Shown piece after piece: positions 18,502 through 51,184 of a DNA stretch of 64,000 nt. The notes under the pieces are model-generated. The model had not been told where the DNA came from. It ran no database searches and saw only the letters and a list, made by a program, of their open reading frames with translations. Made by a program: the position numbers and the translations under genes. This DNA comes from Egibacter rhizosphaerae (lineage in GTDB: Bacteria; Actinomycetota; Nitriliruptoria; Euzebyales; Egibacteraceae): contig NZ_CP036402.1 in assembly GCF_004322855.1 (NCBI RefSeq), forward strand, positions 3,162,001-3,226,000, given 5' to 3'. How positions within the stretch are numbered: the first letter of the stretch is position 1; the number at the start of each line of letters is the position of its first letter.

Positions 18502-21500
18502 ATGCGTCGACAGCTCTCGCTCGTGCTTGCACTTCTCCTCGTGGTTGCGCTCACACCCGTCGGCGGTGTGGGCGCCGAGCCTGACGAGGATGCCACCGAC
18601 GATGATCCGTCTGACTCGCTGGGTGAGCGCTCCCAGGACCTGCGCGACGGCGCCCGGGAGCGCCTCGAGCGCGCGCGGGCCGATGCGGGCGGGTCCCTGG
18701 ACCGCGCCGATGCGCTGTCCGAGGCCGTCGAGGCGGACGAGCCCGACGCGCAGGCCCTCGCCGAGCTGCTGCCCGAGGTCGACGCCGACGCCGTCGCGGT
18801 CGACGGCACGTTCGATCCGCGGGACGACCGGCCGGGCGCACAGGCTCGGGTCCGGGACGACCGGCTCGTCGTCGGGCTGACCCTGCCATCGGTGGCGGAG
18901 GTCCTGGTCGAGGCGGCACCCGACGTGCGCGAGCCCGGCATCGAGGAGGCGCCCCAGGCCGAGGACGCCGAGGATCGGATCGCGCAGCAGCAGCAAGCGG
19001 TGCGCGCGGAGATCGCGGCGCACCAGCCGCCGGCGCGCGGGCCGCAGGTCCACCAGGACCGGACCGTCGAGCTGCGACAGGCGATCAACGCCCTGGTGGT
19101 CGACGGGGACGCCGAGCTGGCGCGGGAGCTGCTCGAGCTCGACGACGTCGCGTTCGTCGAGCCCGTCGTGAACTACGAGCGCGAGCTCGACCGGACCGTC
19201 GCTCAGGTGGGCGCCGGGGAGGTGCTGGACGAGGTGGGGATCGACGCGGACGGCGACGGCGTCTCGGTCGCCGTGCTCGACTCCGGCATCGACTACACCC
19301 ACGAGCGCCTCGGCGGCGACGGCACCGAGGACGCCTTCACCGCGGTGTACGGGGAGACCTGGGACTCGCCGGAGAACCAGCAGCTGCCCGGCGACGAGGA
19401 CGACCCGTTCAACAGCGACAAGGTCACCGAGGGCTTCGACTTCGTCGGCGAGATGTGGGGCGCCGACCCGAACGAGTTCCCCGACCCCGAGGAGCTCCCC
19501 GACGACCCGCTCGACGACGCGCTCCTCGACCCCAACCCGAACCCGATCGACATCGGGGGGCACGGCACGAGCGTCGCCGACATCGTCGGTGGCGTCGGCG
19601 AGGATCCCGGCGTGGCCCCGGGCGCCGACCTCTGGGGACTGAAGGTCTGCGCCTCCTACGGGCTGAGTTGCTCGGGGACGGCCCAGCTCGAGGCGATCGA
19701 CTACGCGCTCTCTCCCGAGGGCGACCCGGGGCTGCGCGACCGCGTCGACATCATCAACCTTTCGCTGGGCGCCGACTACGGGCTGCCGGAGACGACCGCG
19801 AGCACCCTCGCGCTCGAGAACGCGAGCGCGCTCGGGGTGAGCGTCGTCTCGAGCGCCGGCAACGCCGGTGACAACCCCTTCTCCACGGGCACGCCGTCGT
19901 CGGGCGACCCCATCCTGTCGGTCGCGCAGACCGCGGTCACCGGCGAGGCGGTCGACCTCGTCGAGGTGACCGCCGACGGCGCCACCGAGGAGTTCTCCGC
20001 GGTGCGCTTCTCGTTCAGCGAGGAGCAGGACGACCCCGTCGAAGCCGACCTCGCGATCGGCCCGGAGCTCGGCGACACCCCGGGCGAGCAGCTCGCCTGC
20101 AACGTCGACGACGAGGGCGGGATCGACCCCGACGGCGACCGGCCCTACGAGGAGGGGGAGCTCGACGGGCGGATCGTGGCGGTCGAGCGCGGCGAGTGCG
20201 CCTTCAGCGAGAAGGTCTCCAACCTCTCGGTCGCCGGGGCCGAGGTCGGCCTCGTGGTCCAGGACGTGGACGAGCCACCGTTCGACGGGGCCGACGGCGG
20301 CCACGAGCCCATCGACATCCCCGGCTACATGACCGAGACGGGGCTCATCGAGTTCGCGGACGGGGCGGACGACCTCGCCGCCTCGATCGATCCGGCCGAG
20401 GACGCCCCGCTGGACGACACCGTCGTCGGGACGAGCTCCCGCGGGCCGGCGCCGCAGAGCCACCAGCTCAAGCCCGAGATCGGCGCGCCGGGCGCCGCGA
20501 TGACCGCCCAGGCCGCGAGCGGTGACGAGACCACCACGTTCGGGGGCACGAGCGGCGCCGCGCCGCACGTGTCGGGAGCCGCCGCCGTGCTCCTCGAGCT
20601 GGAGCCCGACCTGTCACCGGGCGACGTCAAGGCGCGGCTCATGCACGCCGCGGACCGGGACCTCGAGACGTTCTTCGGCGAGCCTGCCCCCGTGTCGCGG
20701 GCCGGGGCGGGCGAGCTGCGCCTGGCCGACGCGGCCACCTCCGACCTGGTCGTGCGCTCCCGAGACCAGGAGGGCGCGGCGGCGGCGTTGTCGTTCGGCT
20801 TCCCCGACGTGACCGAGGAGACCACGGTCACCGAGCGGCTCGAGGTCGAGAACATCGGCGACTCGACCCGCACCGTCTCTTTCGCGGTCGAGGAGCGCAG
20901 CGGTGCCGGCCAGCCCGGCGTCGACGTGACCGTCGACAGCCCCGTCACCGTGAGCCCCGGTCAGGCGACGACGCTGAACGTGTCGATGACGATCGACCCG
21001 GCCGAGCTGGACGACTGGCGCCTGGATGCCGGCGTCGACGGTCGGGACGGTGACCTGTTGACCCACCTCGAGTACGACGGGTACGTGGTGGCCACCGATG
21101 AGGACGCCGACGAGGAGGCCGCCGCGGTGCCGTGGCACGTGCTGCCGCGGCCGGCCGGCGACGTCGACGCCGAGCCCAACGAGATCGGGATCGCCGATCC
21201 CACCGTCGAGCTGTCGAACGACGCTGAGGCCGACGCGGGGCTCGAGGGGTACGCGCTGCTCGGCGAGGACGAGCGCACCTACGACGAGGGCGACCCGTTC
21301 ACCCGGGAGTTCGCGGATCTGCGCGCGGCGGGGGTCCGCACGGTGGACATCGGCACCGACTTCGCCCTTGAGTTCGCCGTCGACACGTGGGACCGGACCA
21401 CCAACGCCTCCCTGCCGGAGAACCTGGAGGTCCAGCTCGACACCACCGGCGACGGCGACCCCGACCGTGCGATCTTCACCGTCGACATCGGGTTGATCAC

Positions 21501-24500
21501 GGGAGCGGGCCTGCAGGGACAGGCGGTCGCGGTGGTCGTCGACCCCGACACCGGCGCGATCCTCGCGGACCCGTTCTACGTGCAGCACCAGACGAACGCG
21601 GCGACCACGACCTTCGTGGCCCCGTTCGCGGCGCTCGGGATCGACCCCCTCGAGTATCTGCTGGGGATCGGCGAGCCGATCGACGTGACGGTGCTGGGGG
21701 TCGACGCGTTCGACGGCCTGCCGACCGACGTCATGCAGGGACCGCCGATCGTGCCGTTCGGTGAGCGGTTCCTGCCCGACCTGGAACCCGACGACGAGGC
21801 GCTCGTGCTCGACTCGGTCCTCGAGGCGGGCGAGACCCGCGAGATCGTGGGCTCCGAGTTGCTCGGCACCGACTCCGAGGATCTCGGCGTTTTGCTGCTC
21901 ACGAACGGGCGGTACCTCGCCGACGAGGAGATCGCCTCGACCGGCGCCCCCGAGGGGCGGGAGGCCATCGCCCTGCCCGCCCGCGAGGGCGTGGTCAACG
22001 TCGACGATCCCGCGGAGGTGTTCGACTCCGTGCAGGAGGCGGTCGGCGCCGCGGACGAGGGCGACACGCTGCTTGCCCGGGGCGAGTTCGAGGAGAACGT
22101 CGTCGTCGACACCGACGGTCTCGCGCTGCTCGCGTCCAACGCCGGGATCGCCGCCGCCGATCCGGCGGATCCCGCGCTCGAGATCCTCGCTGACGACGTG
22201 CTGGTCGACGGGTTCGACCTCGAGCTCGACCGCTCGCAGCAGCTGCCCACCAATCCCGGGGTCCTCGAGGCCTCCGACGCCGACGGGCTCGTGTTGTTCG
22301 GCCTCGACCTGTCGATCCCCGGTGACGACGTGACGCCCACGAACCCCGCGCTGCGGGCCGAGGGCGTGTCCGAGTTCGCGTTCGTCGAGGGTGTGCAGGC
22401 CGACGCGGCGGTCGCCTTCCACGAGGCCGGGGAGGCGGCCGATGTGCTGATCGACGACTCGATCGTGCGCACCGCCGGCGACGCGGGTATCTGGACCACC
22501 GGCGAGTTCCTGACCCTGGAGCTGTTCGGCAACACCGTCGAGGAGGCGGGGACCGAGGACGAGGACGCTTCCGACGTCCTCGTCGCCGAGCCCGTCGAGG
22601 TCATCAATGGCGTCGACACCGCCGAGGACCCGGCGCAGGTGGAGGACGCCGTCCTCGACCAGAACCCCGGCATCGACTCGGTGGAGCTGCCCTGGCTCGC
22701 CGAGGAGGAGGGCGCGCGGATCGGCGACGAGGTGTACGACACCATCGCCGAGGCGCTCGACGCGGCCGAGGAGGGCGACGAGATCGTCCTGCTCGGGACG
22801 TTCGACGAGTCGGTGGAGGTCGATGTCCCCGGCGTCACGATCCGCGGCAACTCGGCGACGATCACCGGCGACGGCGAGGCTCCGCTCGTCCGGGTCGCCG
22901 TGGACGACGTGTCGGTCGGCCCGAACCTCACGCTGGCGCAGGACCGCAGCACGGGCTCGGCGAACCCCGTCGCGCTCGACGGGGCGAGCGGTACGACCGT
23001 CGAGGGTGTCGAGGTCGACATCACCGACGACGGCGTGCCGGGGATCCCCGCGATCCGCGGTGGCGACGTCGGCGACACCGAGGTGACCGGGACCACCGTC
23101 GACGCGGCGATCGCGTTCGCCGGCCCGGACGCGGACGCGGACATCACCGTCACCGGCAACACGGTGACCACCGCCGGGGACGAGGCGTTCTGGACGGTCG
23201 GCGAGTTCGCGTCGCTGGAGCTGACCGGCAACACCGTCGAGGAGTTCGGGACGCTCGGCGAGGTCGACGCGGCCGTGAAGCTCGTCGACCGGCCGGGCGA
23301 GGTCAACGGCGAGACCCAGCCTCAGGCGGTGATCGACTCGGTCGTCGACGCGAACGAGGGCGTCGACGACGTGACCCTCGACTTCGTCGATCCCGGCACC
23401 GTCCTCAACCTCGCGACGAACGCGACGCACGACAGCGTGGGCGCCGCGATCGATGCCGCCCGGGCCGATGACACGCTTGTGCTCGCGGGGGAGTTCGAGG
23501 AGGGGGTCACGATCCCTGAGCACCTCGCGGGGCTGGAGCTGATCGGTCTCGACGGCGCGGCGCTCGACCAGCCCGACCCCGGGGAGCCGCTGCTGCACGT
23601 GCAGGCCGACGGGGTGCGGGTCAACGGCCTCGACCTGCGCGTCGACCGTCAGCCGGGGACCGTCGCCCCGCCCCATCGGCCGGTCGCCCTCGACGTCGAG
23701 GGGGTCGCGGACGTCACCGTCGAGGGCACGTCCATCGCGGTCGACGGCGGCGATCACGGCAACCACCCCACCCCCGCCCTTCGCGTCACCGACGGCGAGG
23801 GATCGCTCACGGTGCGCGAGGTCACGAGCCATCGCGCGATCGCGTTCGAGGGCCTGGACGAGGCCGCCGACGTGACGGTGCGCGACAGCACGGTGGCCGA
23901 TGCCGGCGACGCGGGGCTGTGGACCACCGGCGAGTTCGCGGCGCTCACGATCGAGGGCGTGACCGTGGAGGCGTTCGACGGCGACGCGGCCGCGGCGTTC
24001 GAGGACCCGTTCGGCGAGGTCAACGGCGTCACCGACGAGGCGGAATTCGAGGACGTGATCCTCGACGCGAACCCCGGCCTCGAGTCGGTCGGCCTGCCCT
24101 GGGTCGCGAACGGCGGCTCGGGCAGCGGCGGTGGTCCGGGCAGCGGCGGCCCGGGCAGCGGCGGCCCGGGCGGCGGCGGTGGTCCGGGCGGCGGCGGCTC
24201 GGGCGGCTCGGGCGGCTCGGACGGCTCCGGCGGTGACGGCGGTGGCTCGGATGGCCCCGGCGGTGACGGCGATGCCTCGGGCGAGGACGGCGGTGCGGTC
24301 GCCGGCACCGCGCTTGGCCGCACGGCCGGCGACGGCCGCTACGCGACCGCGGCCGACATCGCGACCAGCGCCTACGAGGACGCCAACACCGTGTACCTCG
24401 CGACGGGCGAGGCCTTCGCCGACGCGCTGGCCTCCGGCCCCGTGGCCGTCGTCGAGGGCGCTCCGTTGCTCCTCGTCCGCCGCGAGGGCGAGGTGCCCGA

Positions 24501-25410
24501 GCCGACCGCGGAAGCCCTCGACGAGCTGGCGCCCGAGCGGCTCGTGCTCGCCGGCGGTGAAGCGGCGATCGCCCCCGAGGTCGAGGATGCGCTCGGCGAC
24601 GCGGGCGCCGACGTGGAACGGGTCGACGGGACCGATCGGTACGCCACGGCGGCCGCGCTGGCGATGACGGCGTTCGACGACGCCGACACCGCCTACGTCG
24701 CGACCGGGGAGGGCTTCGCGGACGCGCTCGCGGGCGGCGCGGTCGCGGCGGCCGACGACGCGCCGGTGCTGCTCGCCGAGGAGGACGGCGTGCCCGAGGT
24801 CACCGCCGAGGTGCTGACGGCCCTGGGTGTCGAGGACGCGATCGTCCTCGGTGGCGAGGCGGCCCTGGGTCCGGACGTCGACGCGGACCTGGCCTCCCTC
24901 GTCGATGGCGACGTGGAGCGGATCGCTGGCGAGGACCGCTACGACACGGCCGCGGCACTCGCCCGGCGCATCGACGATGCGGAGGCCGCGTACGTCGCCA
25001 CCGGACAGGACTTCGCCGACGCCCTCGCCGCGGTGCCCGCCGCGGCGCAGGAGCCCGCACCCGTGCTGCTCGCCGCGAGCGAGCCGCCCCTGCCGTCCCC
25101 GCTCGTCGACGTGGTCTCCGATGCCGCGTTCGGCCGACTCGAGATCCTCGGTGGCGAGGCGGCCATCGCGGACTCGGTCGCCGAGCTGCTCGACCGAGCG
25201 CGCGCCGGCGAGCCGACCTGCGTCGACCTCAACGAGGCCGACGCGGAGCTGCTGGAGGAGATCACCGGCATCGGTGAGGTGCGCGCCGAGGCCGTCATGG
25301 ACGGGCGACCGTGGAACTCGGTGGACGAGCTCACCGCGATCTCGGGCATCGGGGAGGCCACCCTCGACGGCATCGTCGAGCAGGGGCTCGCCCGGGCCGA
25401 CTGTCCCTGA
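18502..25410 (+). CDS. Giant secreted subtilase: S8, PA, three beta-helix modules, three CWB2 repeats, terminal helix-hairpin-helix
   Basis: 2302 residues from ATG 18502, with GGAGGA 8 nt upstream. A signal peptide (VLALLLVVALTPVGGVGA) is followed by an acidic proregion to about 225. The subtilisin triad is Asp260 (AVLDSGIDYTHE), His354 (GGHGTSVADIVGG) and Ser684 (GGTSGAAPHVSG). A PA domain is inserted before the Ser at about 554-640 (VAVERGECAFSEKVSNLSVA). Then come beta-sandwich regions, three homologous ~220-residue beta-helix modules (about 1167-1390, 1406-1620, 1634-1865), a Gly/Ser linker (about 1871-1935), and three CWB2 repeats from 1938, 2039 and 2139 (DGRYATAADIA type). The end, 2240-2302, is a ComEA-like HhH domain (CVDLNEADAELLEEITGIG). 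Expected role: cell-wall-bound extracellular protease; DNA binding by the tail is inferred. Confidence 0.9.
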   Translation: MRRQLSLVLALLLVVALTPVGGVGAEPDEDATDDDPSDSLGERSQDLRDGARERLERARADAGGSLDRADALSEAVEADEPDAQALAELLPEVDADAVAVDGTFDPRDDRPGAQARVRDDRLVVGLTLPSVAEVLVEAAPDVREPGIEEAPQAEDAEDRIAQQQQAVRAEIAAHQPPARGPQVHQDRTVELRQAINALVVDGDAELARELLELDDVAFVEPVVNYERELDRTVAQVGAGEVLDEVGIDADGDGVSVAVLDSGIDYTHERLGGDGTEDAFTAVYGETWDSPENQQLPGDEDDPFNSDKVTEGFDFVGEMWGADPNEFPDPEELPDDPLDDALLDPNPNPIDIGGHGTSVADIVGGVGEDPGVAPGADLWGLKVCASYGLSCSGTAQLEAIDYALSPEGDPGLRDRVDIINLSLGADYGLPETTASTLALENASALGVSVVSSAGNAGDNPFSTGTPSSGDPILSVAQTAVTGEAVDLVEVTADGATEEFSAVRFSFSEEQDDPVEADLAIGPELGDTPGEQLACNVDDEGGIDPDGDRPYEEGELDGRIVAVERGECAFSEKVSNLSVAGAEVGLVVQDVDEPPFDGADGGHEPIDIPGYMTETGLIEFADGADDLAASIDPAEDAPLDDTVVGTSSRGPAPQSHQLKPEIGAPGAAMTAQAASGDETTTFGGTSGAAPHVSGAAAVLLELEPDLSPGDVKARLMHAADRDLETFFGEPAPVSRAGAGELRLADAATSDLVVRSRDQEGAAAALSFGFPDVTEETTVTERLEVENIGDSTRTVSFAVEERSGAGQPGVDVTVDSPVTVSPGQATTLNVSMTIDPAELDDWRLDAGVDGRDGDLLTHLEYDGYVVATDEDADEEAAAVPWHVLPRPAGDVDAEPNEIGIADPTVELSNDAEADAGLEGYALLGEDERTYDEGDPFTREFADLRAAGVRTVDIGTDFALEFAVDTWDRTTNASLPENLEVQLDTTGDGDPDRAIFTVDIGLITGAGLQGQAVAVVVDPDTGAILADPFYVQHQTNAATTTFVAPFAALGIDPLEYLLGIGEPIDVTVLGVDAFDGLPTDVMQGPPIVPFGERFLPDLEPDDEALVLDSVLEAGETREIVGSELLGTDSEDLGVLLLTNGRYLADEEIASTGAPEGREAIALPAREGVVNVDDPAEVFDSVQEAVGAADEGDTLLARGEFEENVVVDTDGLALLASNAGIAAADPADPALEILADDVLVDGFDLELDRSQQLPTNPGVLEASDADGLVLFGLDLSIPGDDVTPTNPALRAEGVSEFAFVEGVQADAAVAFHEAGEAADVLIDDSIVRTAGDAGIWTTGEFLTLELFGNTVEEAGTEDEDASDVLVAEPVEVINGVDTAEDPAQVEDAVLDQNPGIDSVELPWLAEEEGARIGDEVYDTIAEALDAAEEGDEIVLLGTFDESVEVDVPGVTIRGNSATITGDGEAPLVRVAVDDVSVGPNLTLAQDRSTGSANPVALDGASGTTVEGVEVDITDDGVPGIPAIRGGDVGDTEVTGTTVDAAIAFAGPDADADITVTGNTVTTAGDEAFWTVGEFASLELTGNTVEEFGTLGEVDAAVKLVDRPGEVNGETQPQAVIDSVVDANEGVDDVTLDFVDPGTVLNLATNATHDSVGAAIDAARADDTLVLAGEFEEGVTIPEHLAGLELIGLDGAALDQPDPGEPLLHVQADGVRVNGLDLRVDRQPGTVAPPHRPVALDVEGVADVTVEGTSIAVDGGDHGNHPTPALRVTDGEGSLTVREVTSHRAIAFEGLDEAADVTVRDSTVADAGDAGLWTTGEFAALTIEGVTVEAFDGDAAAAFEDPFGEVNGVTDEAEFEDVILDANPGLESVGLPWVANGGSGSGGGPGSGGPGSGGPGGGGGPGGGGSGGSGGSDGSGGDGGGSDGPGGDGDASGEDGGAVAGTALGRTAGDGRYATAADIATSAYEDANTVYLATGEAFADALASGPVAVVEGAPLLLVRREGEVPEPTAEALDELAPERLVLAGGEAAIAPEVEDALGDAGADVERVDGTDRYATAAALAMTAFDDADTAYVATGEGFADALAGGAVAAADDAPVLLAEEDGVPEVTAEVLTALGVEDAIVLGGEAALGPDVDADLASLVDGDVERIAGEDRYDTAAALARRIDDAEAAYVATGQDFADALAAVPAAAQEPAPVLLAASEPPLPSPLVDVVSDAAFGRLEILGGEAAIADSVAELLDRARAGEPTCVDLNEADAELLEEITGIGEVRAEAVMDGRPWNSVDELTAISGIGEATLDGIVEQGLARADCP

Positions 25411-25479
25411 TCCACGGCTCACCGAGGCGGTGACCAGGCCGCGGGCACGGGTGGCGCCCGCGGCCACGAGTTCCGTCGT

Positions 25480-47764: not shown

Positions 47765-48151
47765 GATCGCTCCGCGACTCCGGGGCGACAAGAGCAGCAA
47801 GGCGAGTATGCGTCACGCCATCCCACGCACCGCCAACGCCCTCGAGATCGCTGCGGACGGGGTAAGGAGCCTGCAACGACCGTGGCCGGGGCAGGGAGTT
47901 CGCGAGGCGCCGGAATCCGGTCTGGCGGGACATCGCCGGGACACCCTCGGAGCGTCCAAGGACGGGTACGCACGCGCGGCGTCGTAGCTGGCTACGAGCT
48001 CACGGGCAGCCGAGGGGGCCCGGCGCCGGAGGCGATCAGCACTTCTGCCGCCCCGCGGCTACAGCACGCGGGATCGCGGCAAGTTCCCGCCTCTTGAAGG
48101 GAAGGCGTAACGTAAGCGCGTTCGGTGGAAAGCGAGGCGGAGGGGTGGCAG
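47765..48151. promoter_or_regulatory. Divergent promoter gap of the coiled-coil and CWB2 protease genes
   Basis: 387 bp without a gene. Towards the minus strand CATACT (47810 to 47805) is a -10 candidate 40 nt before the coiled-coil start. Towards the plus strand TAACGT (48108-48113) fits TANNNT 38 nt before the CWB2 gene, which has ribosome binding site GGAGGGG. The rest shows nothing recognisable. Confidence 0.4.
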
Positions 48152-51100
48152 ATGGGCCAACGCGCGGCGTCATCCACGTGCACGGTCCGCTGGCTGGTGG
48201 TGCTCACCGCTGGCGCGAGCCTCCTTCTGCAGGGCCCGGTAGGGCTCATTCCCCTCGCGCCGGCCGAGGCGCAGGAGGTCGAGGCGCAGCCGCACGCTCG
48301 CACCCTGGAGGCCGCCTCCACCGCGGAGGCCGCTCCGGCGCTCGAGCTCGACGCCCGCGGGGCCGGACGGCTCTCGGGCGACGACCGCTACGCGACGGCC
48401 GCGCGTATCGCGTCGGCGGCCTTCCCCGACGGGGTTGACGAGGCGGTCGTGGCGACCGGTGAGAACTTCCCCGACGCCCTCGCGGCCTCGGGTCTCGCCG
48501 GCCGTCTCGACGCGCCGGTCCTGCTCACCATGCGCGACCGGCTCCCCGCGTCGACCGCGGAGGCGCTCGCGACGCTCGATGTCGAAACCGTGCACGTGAT
48601 CGGCGGGAACGCGGCCGTGGCCCCCGCGGTCGCGACCGACCTCGACGCGCGCGGCTACACGGCCGCGCGCCACGCGGGAGCCGACCGCTACGAGACCGCC
48701 GCGGAGATCGCCACGACGTTCTCCGCGAGCGACACCGCGATCGTCGCGACCGGGGAGAACTTCCCCGACGCGCTGGCGGGCGGGCCGCTCGCGTTCGCCG
48801 GCCCGAGCCCGGTGCTGCTGGTCGGCGCGACGGTGCCGGCCGCGACCGAGGCCGCGCTCGACGAGCTGGGCATCAGCGAGGTGGTGATCCTCGGCGGCCC
48901 GGCGGCCGTGAGCGAGTCGGTCGAGGCCCGCCTCGCCGAGGTGACCGGCGACGCCGCCCCGCGCCGGCTCGCGGGCGACGACCGGTACGAGACCGCCGCT
49001 GAGGTAGCGCGCTACCTCGTCGACGAGACCGGCGGGGTGGACGGCGATCACGCGCTCGTCGCGAACGGGGTCCGCAACCTGGGCGTCGACGCGCTGGCGG
49101 GCGGTCCCTACGGGGGTGCGGCGGGCGCGCCGCTGCTGCTGCTCGGCGACGAGCAGGTGCCCGCGGCGACCGGCGCGTGGCTGACCGAGCAGCGGCCGGG
49201 CACGCTGGAGGCGCTCGGCGGACCCGCGGTGGTGAGCGACGCGGTGTTCGCGGACGCGCTCGAGCTCGCGGGCATCGACGCGAGCGGGCCGGCGCCCGGG
49301 GCAGAGCCGCTCGCCTGCGAGCAGGCCGGCTACCCGTGCTCGTGGGCCGAGGCCGACCCCGCGATCCTCGACGCCAGTGTCGACCTCGCCCTCGACGCCG
49401 ACGCGCGCCATCGGGACGGCGACGCGCTCGGGGAGGTCGCGGACTGGCTCGCCGACCGAGCCGACGTGGAGGCCGTCGCGAGTGGGGAGGCGTCGCTGAT
49501 GTTTCGCCTCGCGGGCGGCCGGCCGACCTGGGTCGTGGCCGACGAGCCGGTGGGCCCGCCCGACGCGGCCACCGCGACGAGTGCGCCCACCCAGCCCGAC
49601 GCGCCCACCACGGCGAGCACCCTACCGGCCGAGCCGCGCGGCGTCGCCGGGGACGATCCCGACGAGAAGTCGGCGCTCGTGCTCTCCCCCTACGCCTGGG
49701 ACTTCGACCAGAGCGAGGGCGAGCAGGTCGCGGCGCTGCTCGGCGGCACCCGCGGCTACGGGTCGGTCACCTACCACGAGAACGTCTACGACACGTCGGC
49801 GAACGAGGCGCGCCTGGGCGTGACCGCGGCCGACTACCAGTCGATCCCCGATCACGACGTCGTGCACCTCGACACGCACGGCAGCTACGCGTGCGACGAC
49901 GGCGACTGCTACACGCGCGTGTCGACCGGCCTCGACATCGGCGACCTCGAGCGCGACGTCTTCACCGGCGAGGTGATCGAGGTGAGCGGCGGGCGGACCG
50001 GCAGCGCGCTCTCGGCCGACACGTTCCGCGCGATGCCCGACACGGGGCCGCAGATCGTGTTCATCAACGCGTGCGAGACCTACTCCGGCTCGGACCTCGC
50101 GGGCGCGCTCACGACCGGGCGCGACACCGTCTTCCTCGGGTGGGACGCGGCCGTCGACAGCGCGGATGCCGCCGACGCGGCTACCCGCTTCTACACCGAC
50201 CTCGCCGAGCGCGGGGTCACCACCGAGGAGGCGCTCGACACCCTGCGCGACGAGGGCCTGGCCGTCGATCGCGACGGTGCCGAGCTGCGACGTGCCGAGG
50301 GCCGCGAGGATCTGCGCCTGCGCGAGGTCGCGACCCTGCTCGCGTCCGACGGCACCGAGCTCGCCTCGACCGACGGGCTCACGCTCGGCGGTGACGACCA
50401 GGACGTGCTCGAGGTCACCGTCGAGGTCGAGGGCGTGCTCCCCGACCCGGGCGAGCGGAGCGACTACACGGTGCGCCTGGAGGTCGACGGGCAGCGCTCG
50501 CCGACGAGCTACCGACTCGACGCGGCACAGGCCTCCCGCGTGGGGGACATTGACGGCGCGGCGATCTACCGGGTCGACGGCGCCTGGCAGCTGCCCGCCG
50601 GCGTCGACACGTCGGCGCCGCTGGATCTCGAGGCGGTCGTCGATCTGCCCGACGGCGGCGAGAGCCGCCATCGCGTCGAGGGCGTCTCGGTCGCGGGGTG
50701 CTGGTACACCGTCGAGTGGAGCGGCGCCGGCAGCGGCTCGGAGACGTGGGTCTACGACGACGCGAGCGACGACATCGAGGACCTGCTCTCGCTGATCCTC
50801 GTGCGCAGCGACGACGCCGGCGATCTCACGACGATCCAGCTCGGGGCCGCGTTCAGTTCGGCCGAGACGGTGACCGAGTTCGGCGACGTGCAGGCCGAGG
50901 GCGCGCTGATGCCTGCCGGCCAGACCGGCACGGTGACCCCGCCCATGAGCCATTGGAACGATGTCGCTCGGTTCTCGGGCACCGGGCAGCTCGACCTGAC
51001 CCGCCACGAGTCTCGGTACCTGGACGACCTCGACACGACGGTCGCTCGTCGGCTCGAGGGGCGGTTCCACGGCACGCTGCCCCCGGACGACGACGAGGTC

Positions 51101-51184
51101 GCGGGCTCGGTGACCGTCAGCGGCGAGTTCGTCTACGACGTCGACGCGTGCCGCCCGGCCGGCGCCACCCCGCCGGGGGAATGA
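48152..51184 (+). CDS. CWB2-anchored surface protein with clan CD (caspase/CHAT-like) protease domain
   Basis: 1010 residues from ATG 48152, with GGAGGGG 6 nt upstream. A signal peptide (WLVVLTAGASLLLQGPVGLI, then PLAPAEA) precedes three CWB2 repeats starting near 70, 170 and 270 (GRLSGDDRYATAARIA; HAGADRYETAAEIA; RLAGDDRYETAAEVA), which bind cell-wall polymer. A protease-like domain spans about 510-720. His576 is in VVHLDTHGSYACDDG and Cys641 in IVFINACETYSGSD, the His-Gly/Cys dyad of clan CD peptidases (gingipain, caspase, CHAT). The remaining ~300 residues are beta-rich. Likely a secreted, wall-bound cysteine peptidase; specificity unknown. It shares wall-anchor modules with the subtilase at 18502-25410 but puts them at the N-terminus. 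Confidence 0.82.
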   Translation: MGQRAASSTCTVRWLVVLTAGASLLLQGPVGLIPLAPAEAQEVEAQPHARTLEAASTAEAAPALELDARGAGRLSGDDRYATAARIASAAFPDGVDEAVVATGENFPDALAASGLAGRLDAPVLLTMRDRLPASTAEALATLDVETVHVIGGNAAVAPAVATDLDARGYTAARHAGADRYETAAEIATTFSASDTAIVATGENFPDALAGGPLAFAGPSPVLLVGATVPAATEAALDELGISEVVILGGPAAVSESVEARLAEVTGDAAPRRLAGDDRYETAAEVARYLVDETGGVDGDHALVANGVRNLGVDALAGGPYGGAAGAPLLLLGDEQVPAATGAWLTEQRPGTLEALGGPAVVSDAVFADALELAGIDASGPAPGAEPLACEQAGYPCSWAEADPAILDASVDLALDADARHRDGDALGEVADWLADRADVEAVASGEASLMFRLAGGRPTWVVADEPVGPPDAATATSAPTQPDAPTTASTLPAEPRGVAGDDPDEKSALVLSPYAWDFDQSEGEQVAALLGGTRGYGSVTYHENVYDTSANEARLGVTAADYQSIPDHDVVHLDTHGSYACDDGDCYTRVSTGLDIGDLERDVFTGEVIEVSGGRTGSALSADTFRAMPDTGPQIVFINACETYSGSDLAGALTTGRDTVFLGWDAAVDSADAADAATRFYTDLAERGVTTEEALDTLRDEGLAVDRDGAELRRAEGREDLRLREVATLLASDGTELASTDGLTLGGDDQDVLEVTVEVEGVLPDPGERSDYTVRLEVDGQRSPTSYRLDAAQASRVGDIDGAAIYRVDGAWQLPAGVDTSAPLDLEAVVDLPDGGESRHRVEGVSVAGCWYTVEWSGAGSGSETWVYDDASDDIEDLLSLILVRSDDAGDLTTIQLGAAFSSAETVTEFGDVQAEGALMPAGQTGTVTPPMSHWNDVARFSGTGQLDLTRHESRYLDDLDTTVARRLEGRFHGTLPPDDDEVAGSVTVSGEFVYDVDACRPAGATPPGE

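Follow-up and report, generated by a model that had tools for sequence, protein, structure and literature searches.

A wall-anchored subtilase of Egibacter rhizosphaerae ending in a cysteine-bracketed (HhH)2 domain with a putative DNA-holding role

Relatives of the helix-hairpin-helix (HhH) domain analysed here include the DNA-binding domains of ComEA. HhH–DNA binding relies largely on contacts to backbone phosphates, and K164 of the Bacillus subtilis protein is the best conserved among the residues tested (PMC9747964). In Vibrio cholerae ComEA the exchange K63A at the same site lowers transformation about 250-fold and the double exchange K62/63A abolishes DNA binding (PMC3879209), while Gram-positive ComEA also requires an oligomerisation domain for transformation (PMC9747964). 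The extracellular metallo-beta-lactamase (MBL) domain of ComEC is reported to be a metal-dependent nuclease (PMC8579336). CWB2 repeats of Clostridioides difficile bind non-covalently to the anionic wall polymer PSII (PMC4973711). Here we describe a gene that joins a subtilase to CWB2 repeats and to a C-terminal domain related to that of ComEA. It lies in a stretch of 64,000 nucleotides (called the window in the following; contig NZ_CP036402.1, positions 3,162,001 to 3,226,000) of the E. rhizosphaerae genome, which is one contig of 4.64 Mb. The window has a GC content of 74% and no RNA element was found within it.

Domain layout of the subtilase

The gene (18502–25410, + strand) encodes 2302 amino acids, a GGAGG-type ribosome site precedes its ATG, and GC at the three codon positions is 0.79/0.48/0.94 over the full length including the tail. 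An antisense open reading frame of 1617 amino acids (20614–25467, − strand) was rejected as a real gene, since its codon-position GC is the mirror image of that of the sense gene and it is thus a high-GC artefact. We also rejected a separate, fused HhH gene as an explanation of the tail, as residues 2181–2245 ahead of the tail hold only two in-frame GTG and no ATG.

A signal peptide (residues 1–25, MRRQLSLVLALLLVVALTPVGGVGA; 18502–18576) was read by eye from the sequence, and the layout includes a long N-terminal stretch. The Peptidase_S8 domain (PF00082; residues 251–735, 19252–20706) scores 130.6 bits against a cut-off of 21.8 (9.5e-38), and its triad D260/H354/S684 is intact in the motifs LDSGIDYTH, GGHGTS and GTSGAAPH. 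Inside the protease lies a PA domain (residues 530–610, 20089–20331; Pfam 3.1e-7) with its own pair of cysteines, C533 and C566. The protease is followed by a middle region common to relatives and by three beta-helix modules (22006–22725, 22726–23388 and 23419–24123) of about 230 residues each, which are 41–42% identical to each other and of which a search of the own genome found no other copies. Pfam detects them below cut-off only. For module 1, AlphaFold predicts an all-beta structure with high confidence (pLDDT 84.8). The best matches of this model in the PDB are pectin methylesterases and other right-handed beta-helices (E about 3e-3, TM about 0.4), modest scores that point to a predicted right-handed beta-helix at the level of the fold class only.

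A flexible linker rich in Gly and Ser (24124–24318, read by eye) leads to three tandem CWB2 repeats with a PILL-type motif, all three of them above the Pfam cut-off (2.2e-44). The first repeat (24319–24585) has PLLL at the PILL position, and the second (24619–24879) and third (24919–25179) have PVLL. CWB2 is the general display system of this genome, in which 155 matches to the repeat were found, an unusually large repertoire for wall display. One further CWB2 protein of about 1000 amino acids, with no other Pfam domain, is encoded in the window itself (48125–51184, + strand).

The tail extends from C2240 to C2301 (25219–25404), the sole cysteines outside the protease/PA region. Pfam finds HHH_3 (PF12836) at residues 2241–2290 with 33.9 bits at a cut-off of 27 (3.3e-8), and in the genome-wide scan the match is far above chance (1.4e-9). 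An earlier note, made by reading the sequence, had named an S8 protease with inserted PA domain, three beta-helix modules, three CWB2 anchors and a C-terminal HhH. Open reading frame, Pfam matches, triad and structure model bear out its coordinates and all of these parts, with one refinement: the HhH is present, but as two motifs bracketed by C2240 and C2301 and not as a single one.

Relation of the tail to ComEA and capacity for DNA binding

The same note had called the tail ComEA-like. Homology to the ComEA DNA-binding domain holds, as the tail aligns without gaps to PDB entry 2DUY (1.6e-8), whereas membership of ComEA in the strict sense had to be rejected because of the Cys bracket, the RP[FWY] link and the invariant Arg, and because the tail scores 33 bits against the full-length ComEA family TIGR01259 with its cut-off of 152.35. 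According to the Pfam scan the subtilase lacks an SLBB domain and a membrane anchor ahead of the HhH; a ComEA-type oligomerisation domain is absent as well. The only HHH_3 matches of the genome are ComEA, PolX and the subtilase tail. Across 66 genomes of the class the scores against a tail profile split into eight proteins at 75–116 bits and the ComEAs at no more than 57 bits.

The collected domains were sorted solely by the presence of Cys on both sides, so that the key Arg and the link length played no part in the grouping. All 15 bracketed tails, which are distinct but related sequences and not 15 independent events, have an Arg at the position of ComEA K63/K164 and a one-residue link (RPF, RPW or RPY); one of them (G042) stops in frame ahead of the second Cys. 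The other, ComEA-type domains have links of 2–5 residues, and an Arg or Lys occupies the K63/K164 position in 14 of 32. The subtilase tail belongs to the bracketed subclass, since it has the two cysteines, the RP[FWY] link and, with R2261, the Arg at the K63 site. Judged by these residues and by the company it keeps, the tail is a nuclease-associated, Cys-bracketed sister subclass and not ComEA proper, and we infer that C2240 and C2301 form a disulfide. A full-text search of open-licence papers returned no description of this subclass or of an S8-CWB2-HhH protein.

As the structure model of the tail is poor (AlphaFold from the single sequence, pLDDT 61.6, fold search without significant match), the tail was compared with 2DUY, 8DFK and 8DSS by sequence alignment. 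The first hairpin, G2256-I-G2258 with R2261 (25267–25284), places the Arg at the V. cholerae K63 and B. subtilis K164 site (PMC3879209, PMC9747964). G2258, R2261 and R2269 are spaced like V. cholerae G60, K63 and R71 (PMC3879209), with the same gap of eight residues between the key basic residue and the next conserved Arg, and a Val is found at the K62 position. In the second hairpin, G2282-I-G2284-E-A-T2287 (25345–25362), T2287 aligns with the DNA-contacting Thr196 of Geobacillus ComEA and an Ala takes the place of Lys195 (PMC9747964). B. subtilis K193, K197 and K199 correspond to A2286, G2290 and V2292 in the 2DUY alignment, which was extended here by eye, so that of the four tested lysines of that protein three are missing from the tail. 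The earlier note had proposed to judge DNA binding by the contact residues on a structural model, and the outcome is divided: the tail retains the key Arg and a GIG turn in each hairpin, the equivalents of the three lysines are replaced, and the model itself is of the low confidence given above.

The tail has a net charge of −12 and very few basic residues. The HhH of the genome's own ComEA is acidic as well (−9), and the whole subtilase has a charge of −397, on average −0.17 per residue, with 21% Asp and Glu, which we take to be the mark of a salt-adapted proteome. Since both the own ComEA and the whole protein are acidic, the charge of the tail is weak evidence either way and mirrors the protein or proteome, not the tail domain itself.

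Two observations on ComEA were made alongside. A basic residue is missing from the K63/K164 position in 18 of the 32 collected ComEA-type domains, and the genome's own ComEA (L001, G000:C1 666 kb) has a Thr at the key lysine position (GVGEVTAAAI).

Partners, relatives and origin of the tail

The 15 distinct bracketed tails are found on 13 secreted nuclease-type proteins, one type IV pilin (G333) and one protease, the subtilase of the window. Eight of the nuclease-type partners are ComEC-like MBL proteins (G009, there behind CWB2; G030/G034; G059; G042; G058; G061; G441; and a Sutcliffiella plasmid), three are DNase-I-like proteins (EEP) from Thioalkalivibrio and Halomonas plasmids, assigned by annotation and sequence, and two are GmrSD_C proteins (G178 and G622, the latter by similarity). 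These proteins are presumably active nucleases, and given the nuclease activity reported for the ComEC MBL domain (PMC8579336), the tail appears to associate with extracellular enzymes that degrade DNA. With secreted enzymes of the nuclease type as its main partners, the tail can reasonably be expected to meet DNA outside the cell, and from this association and the key residues we consider DNA binding by the tail likely. DNA tethering, capture of DNA–protein complexes and anchoring in a biofilm matrix, the roles suggested in the earlier note, are guesses.

In 396 genomes of the phylum, seven of which have a high-scoring bracketed tail, no second protease with such a tail was found. A further 395 genomes from the class of G178 added two bracketed tails, neither of them on a protease. 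Searches of viral contigs with single tails gave only HhH matches that by their appearance are of the PolC/DnaE type, and the whole subtilase had one irrelevant match in public genomes. As no other tail-bearing protease was found, the pairing of S8 and tail is without independent conservation.

The closest subtilase comes from the same family (G004, locus L077). It shares the signal peptide, the S8 domain with PA insert (protease 48% identical), the three CWB2 repeats and a middle region with 37% identity across some 190 residues, counted from residue 901, but it ends after CWB2 and has neither beta-helix modules nor HhH tail, so that both were either added in the lineage of the window or have disappeared from that of G004. 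Closest in sequence to the tail (63% identity) is that of a protein from the same bacterial family (G009, locus L078), in which CWB2 is combined with a ComEC-like MBL (ComEC_Rec2, 5.3e-38) and HhH. It has both cysteines, the same extension ahead of the last Cys and the same kind of wall anchor; it differs in having a nuclease-type domain instead of the protease and an N-terminal anchor. Domain shuffling is the probable source of the tail, as suggested by its presence on a CWB2-anchored ComEC-like protein in the same family. A joint arrival of anchor and tail from a G009-like gene was rejected, since the CWB2 block of the subtilase is closest to a paralogue in its own genome and not to the G009 protein; the pieces were thus probably shuffled separately.

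Some of the proteins met in these searches deserve mention for themselves. The type IV pilin (L148:7809–8414, − strand, in G333) has an N_methyl motif and the bracketed (HhH)2 at its C-terminus and is possibly a DNA-binding pilin. The L078 protein (G009, contig 352) joins ComEC and ComEA parts in a single protein and, as a secreted, CWB2-anchored stand-alone ComEC-type MBL with (HhH)2 tail, is a candidate for a wall-displayed nuclease. About 70 kb from the subtilase an open frame of 3392 amino acids (G000:C1:3254805–3255665; L017, L024) has the CWB2 most similar to that of the subtilase (49%).

Possible role and comparison with known systems

The reading we prefer, with a rough probability of one half, is that the subtilase is secreted, is presented on the wall through its three CWB2 repeats and bears a putative DNA-holding (HhH)2 tail of a subclass typical of extracellular nuclease-type enzymes. 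The enzyme would be secreted and held on the cell wall through the three repeats, and the tail would hold double-stranded DNA non-specifically close to the wall surface. The protease could then act on proteins in a DNA-rich matrix or in the debris of lysed cells and strip or digest proteins bound to DNA, with the Gly linker and the beta-helices providing reach and perhaps contact to polysaccharides. More tentatively, the bracketed tail might be a general address tag for extracellular DNA that was acquired separately by secreted enzymes and pilins, which would make the subtilase a DNA-addressed, wall-tethered protease that clears DNA of proteins or feeds on DNA-bound protein.

The tail could instead be a structural or protein-binding cap, a disulfide-locked plug that guards the anchor or binds a wall partner and has no role with DNA. 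Its position directly after the CWB2 block, its strong acidity and shortage of basic residues, and PsbU, a photosystem II relative of the same fold family, would fit such a cap. PsbU, however, has lost the GIG and both basic residues in the same alignment while the tail retains them, the Arg at the key position occurs in 15/15 relatives whose partners are mostly nuclease types, and acidity is shared by the own ComEA HhH and the protein as a whole, so that we regard a cap as unlikely. We also doubt that the tail is a functionless remnant of recombination between CWB2 genes, derived from a CWB2-nuclease protein. The closest tail does come from a CWB2-MBL-HhH protein within the same bacterial family, the S8–tail pairing occurs in only one of the genomes searched, and the 155 CWB2 matches offer many recombination sites; against this, the tail has lost neither its two cysteines nor its two hairpins, its key Arg is in place and its codon use is normal, and with a CWB2 block nearest to an own-genome paralogue and not to G009 a joint arrival of tail and anchor is not obvious.

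A service in natural transformation, with the subtilase catching DNA at the wall and handing it to ComEA/ComEC, is very unlikely in our view. The tail is homologous to ComEA and the genome does contain a canonical comEA-comEC pair, adjoining at 664–666 kb, but the subtilase gene at 3.18 Mb is about 2.5 Mb away, and anchor, protease and the absence of an SLBB domain all fit poorly. Its neighbours, an HGSNAT-type acetyltransferase, a branched-chain ABC transporter and a ketosynthase-III-like protein, are unrelated and none is linked to DNA. The earlier note had mentioned the part of ComEA domains in DNA uptake; no link of the tail to it was found in this genome, which has its own ComEA beside ComEC.

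Should the tail of the wall-displayed subtilase bind DNA, the protease would be steered by extracellular DNA, a new coupling of protein and DNA digestion that could matter in biofilms and for nutrient scavenging. More widely, this small HhH module with its Cys bracket, which is distinct from ComEA, seems to move among secreted nucleases, a pilin and a subtilase, and its presence could help to recognise uncharacterised secreted proteins whose target is DNA outside the cell.

Among known systems, the CWP family of C. difficile (PMC4973711) resembles the subtilase in its three tandem CWB2 repeats with PILL-like motif and in the display of an enzyme on the wall. The host of the subtilase belongs to a different phylum. 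To our knowledge no CWP member has a Cys-bracketed (HhH)2 tail. ComEA (TIGR01259; PDB 2DUY, 8DFK, 8DSS) shares with the tail the (HhH)2 fold family, the GIG hairpins, the basic residue at K63/K164 and the Arg eight residues on, and differs in its SLBB/oligomerisation domain, its membrane anchor, a usually longer hairpin link, a gene adjoining comEC and the lack of a Cys bracket. The secreted nuclease-type enzymes, namely the EEP proteins of the Thioalkalivibrio and Halomonas plasmids, the MBL of Sutcliffiella and the GmrSD_C proteins of G178 and G622, are likewise extracellular and end in the same bracketed tail, but in them the catalytic part is of the nuclease type and stands without a CWB2 anchor, where the subtilase combines a protease with display on the wall.
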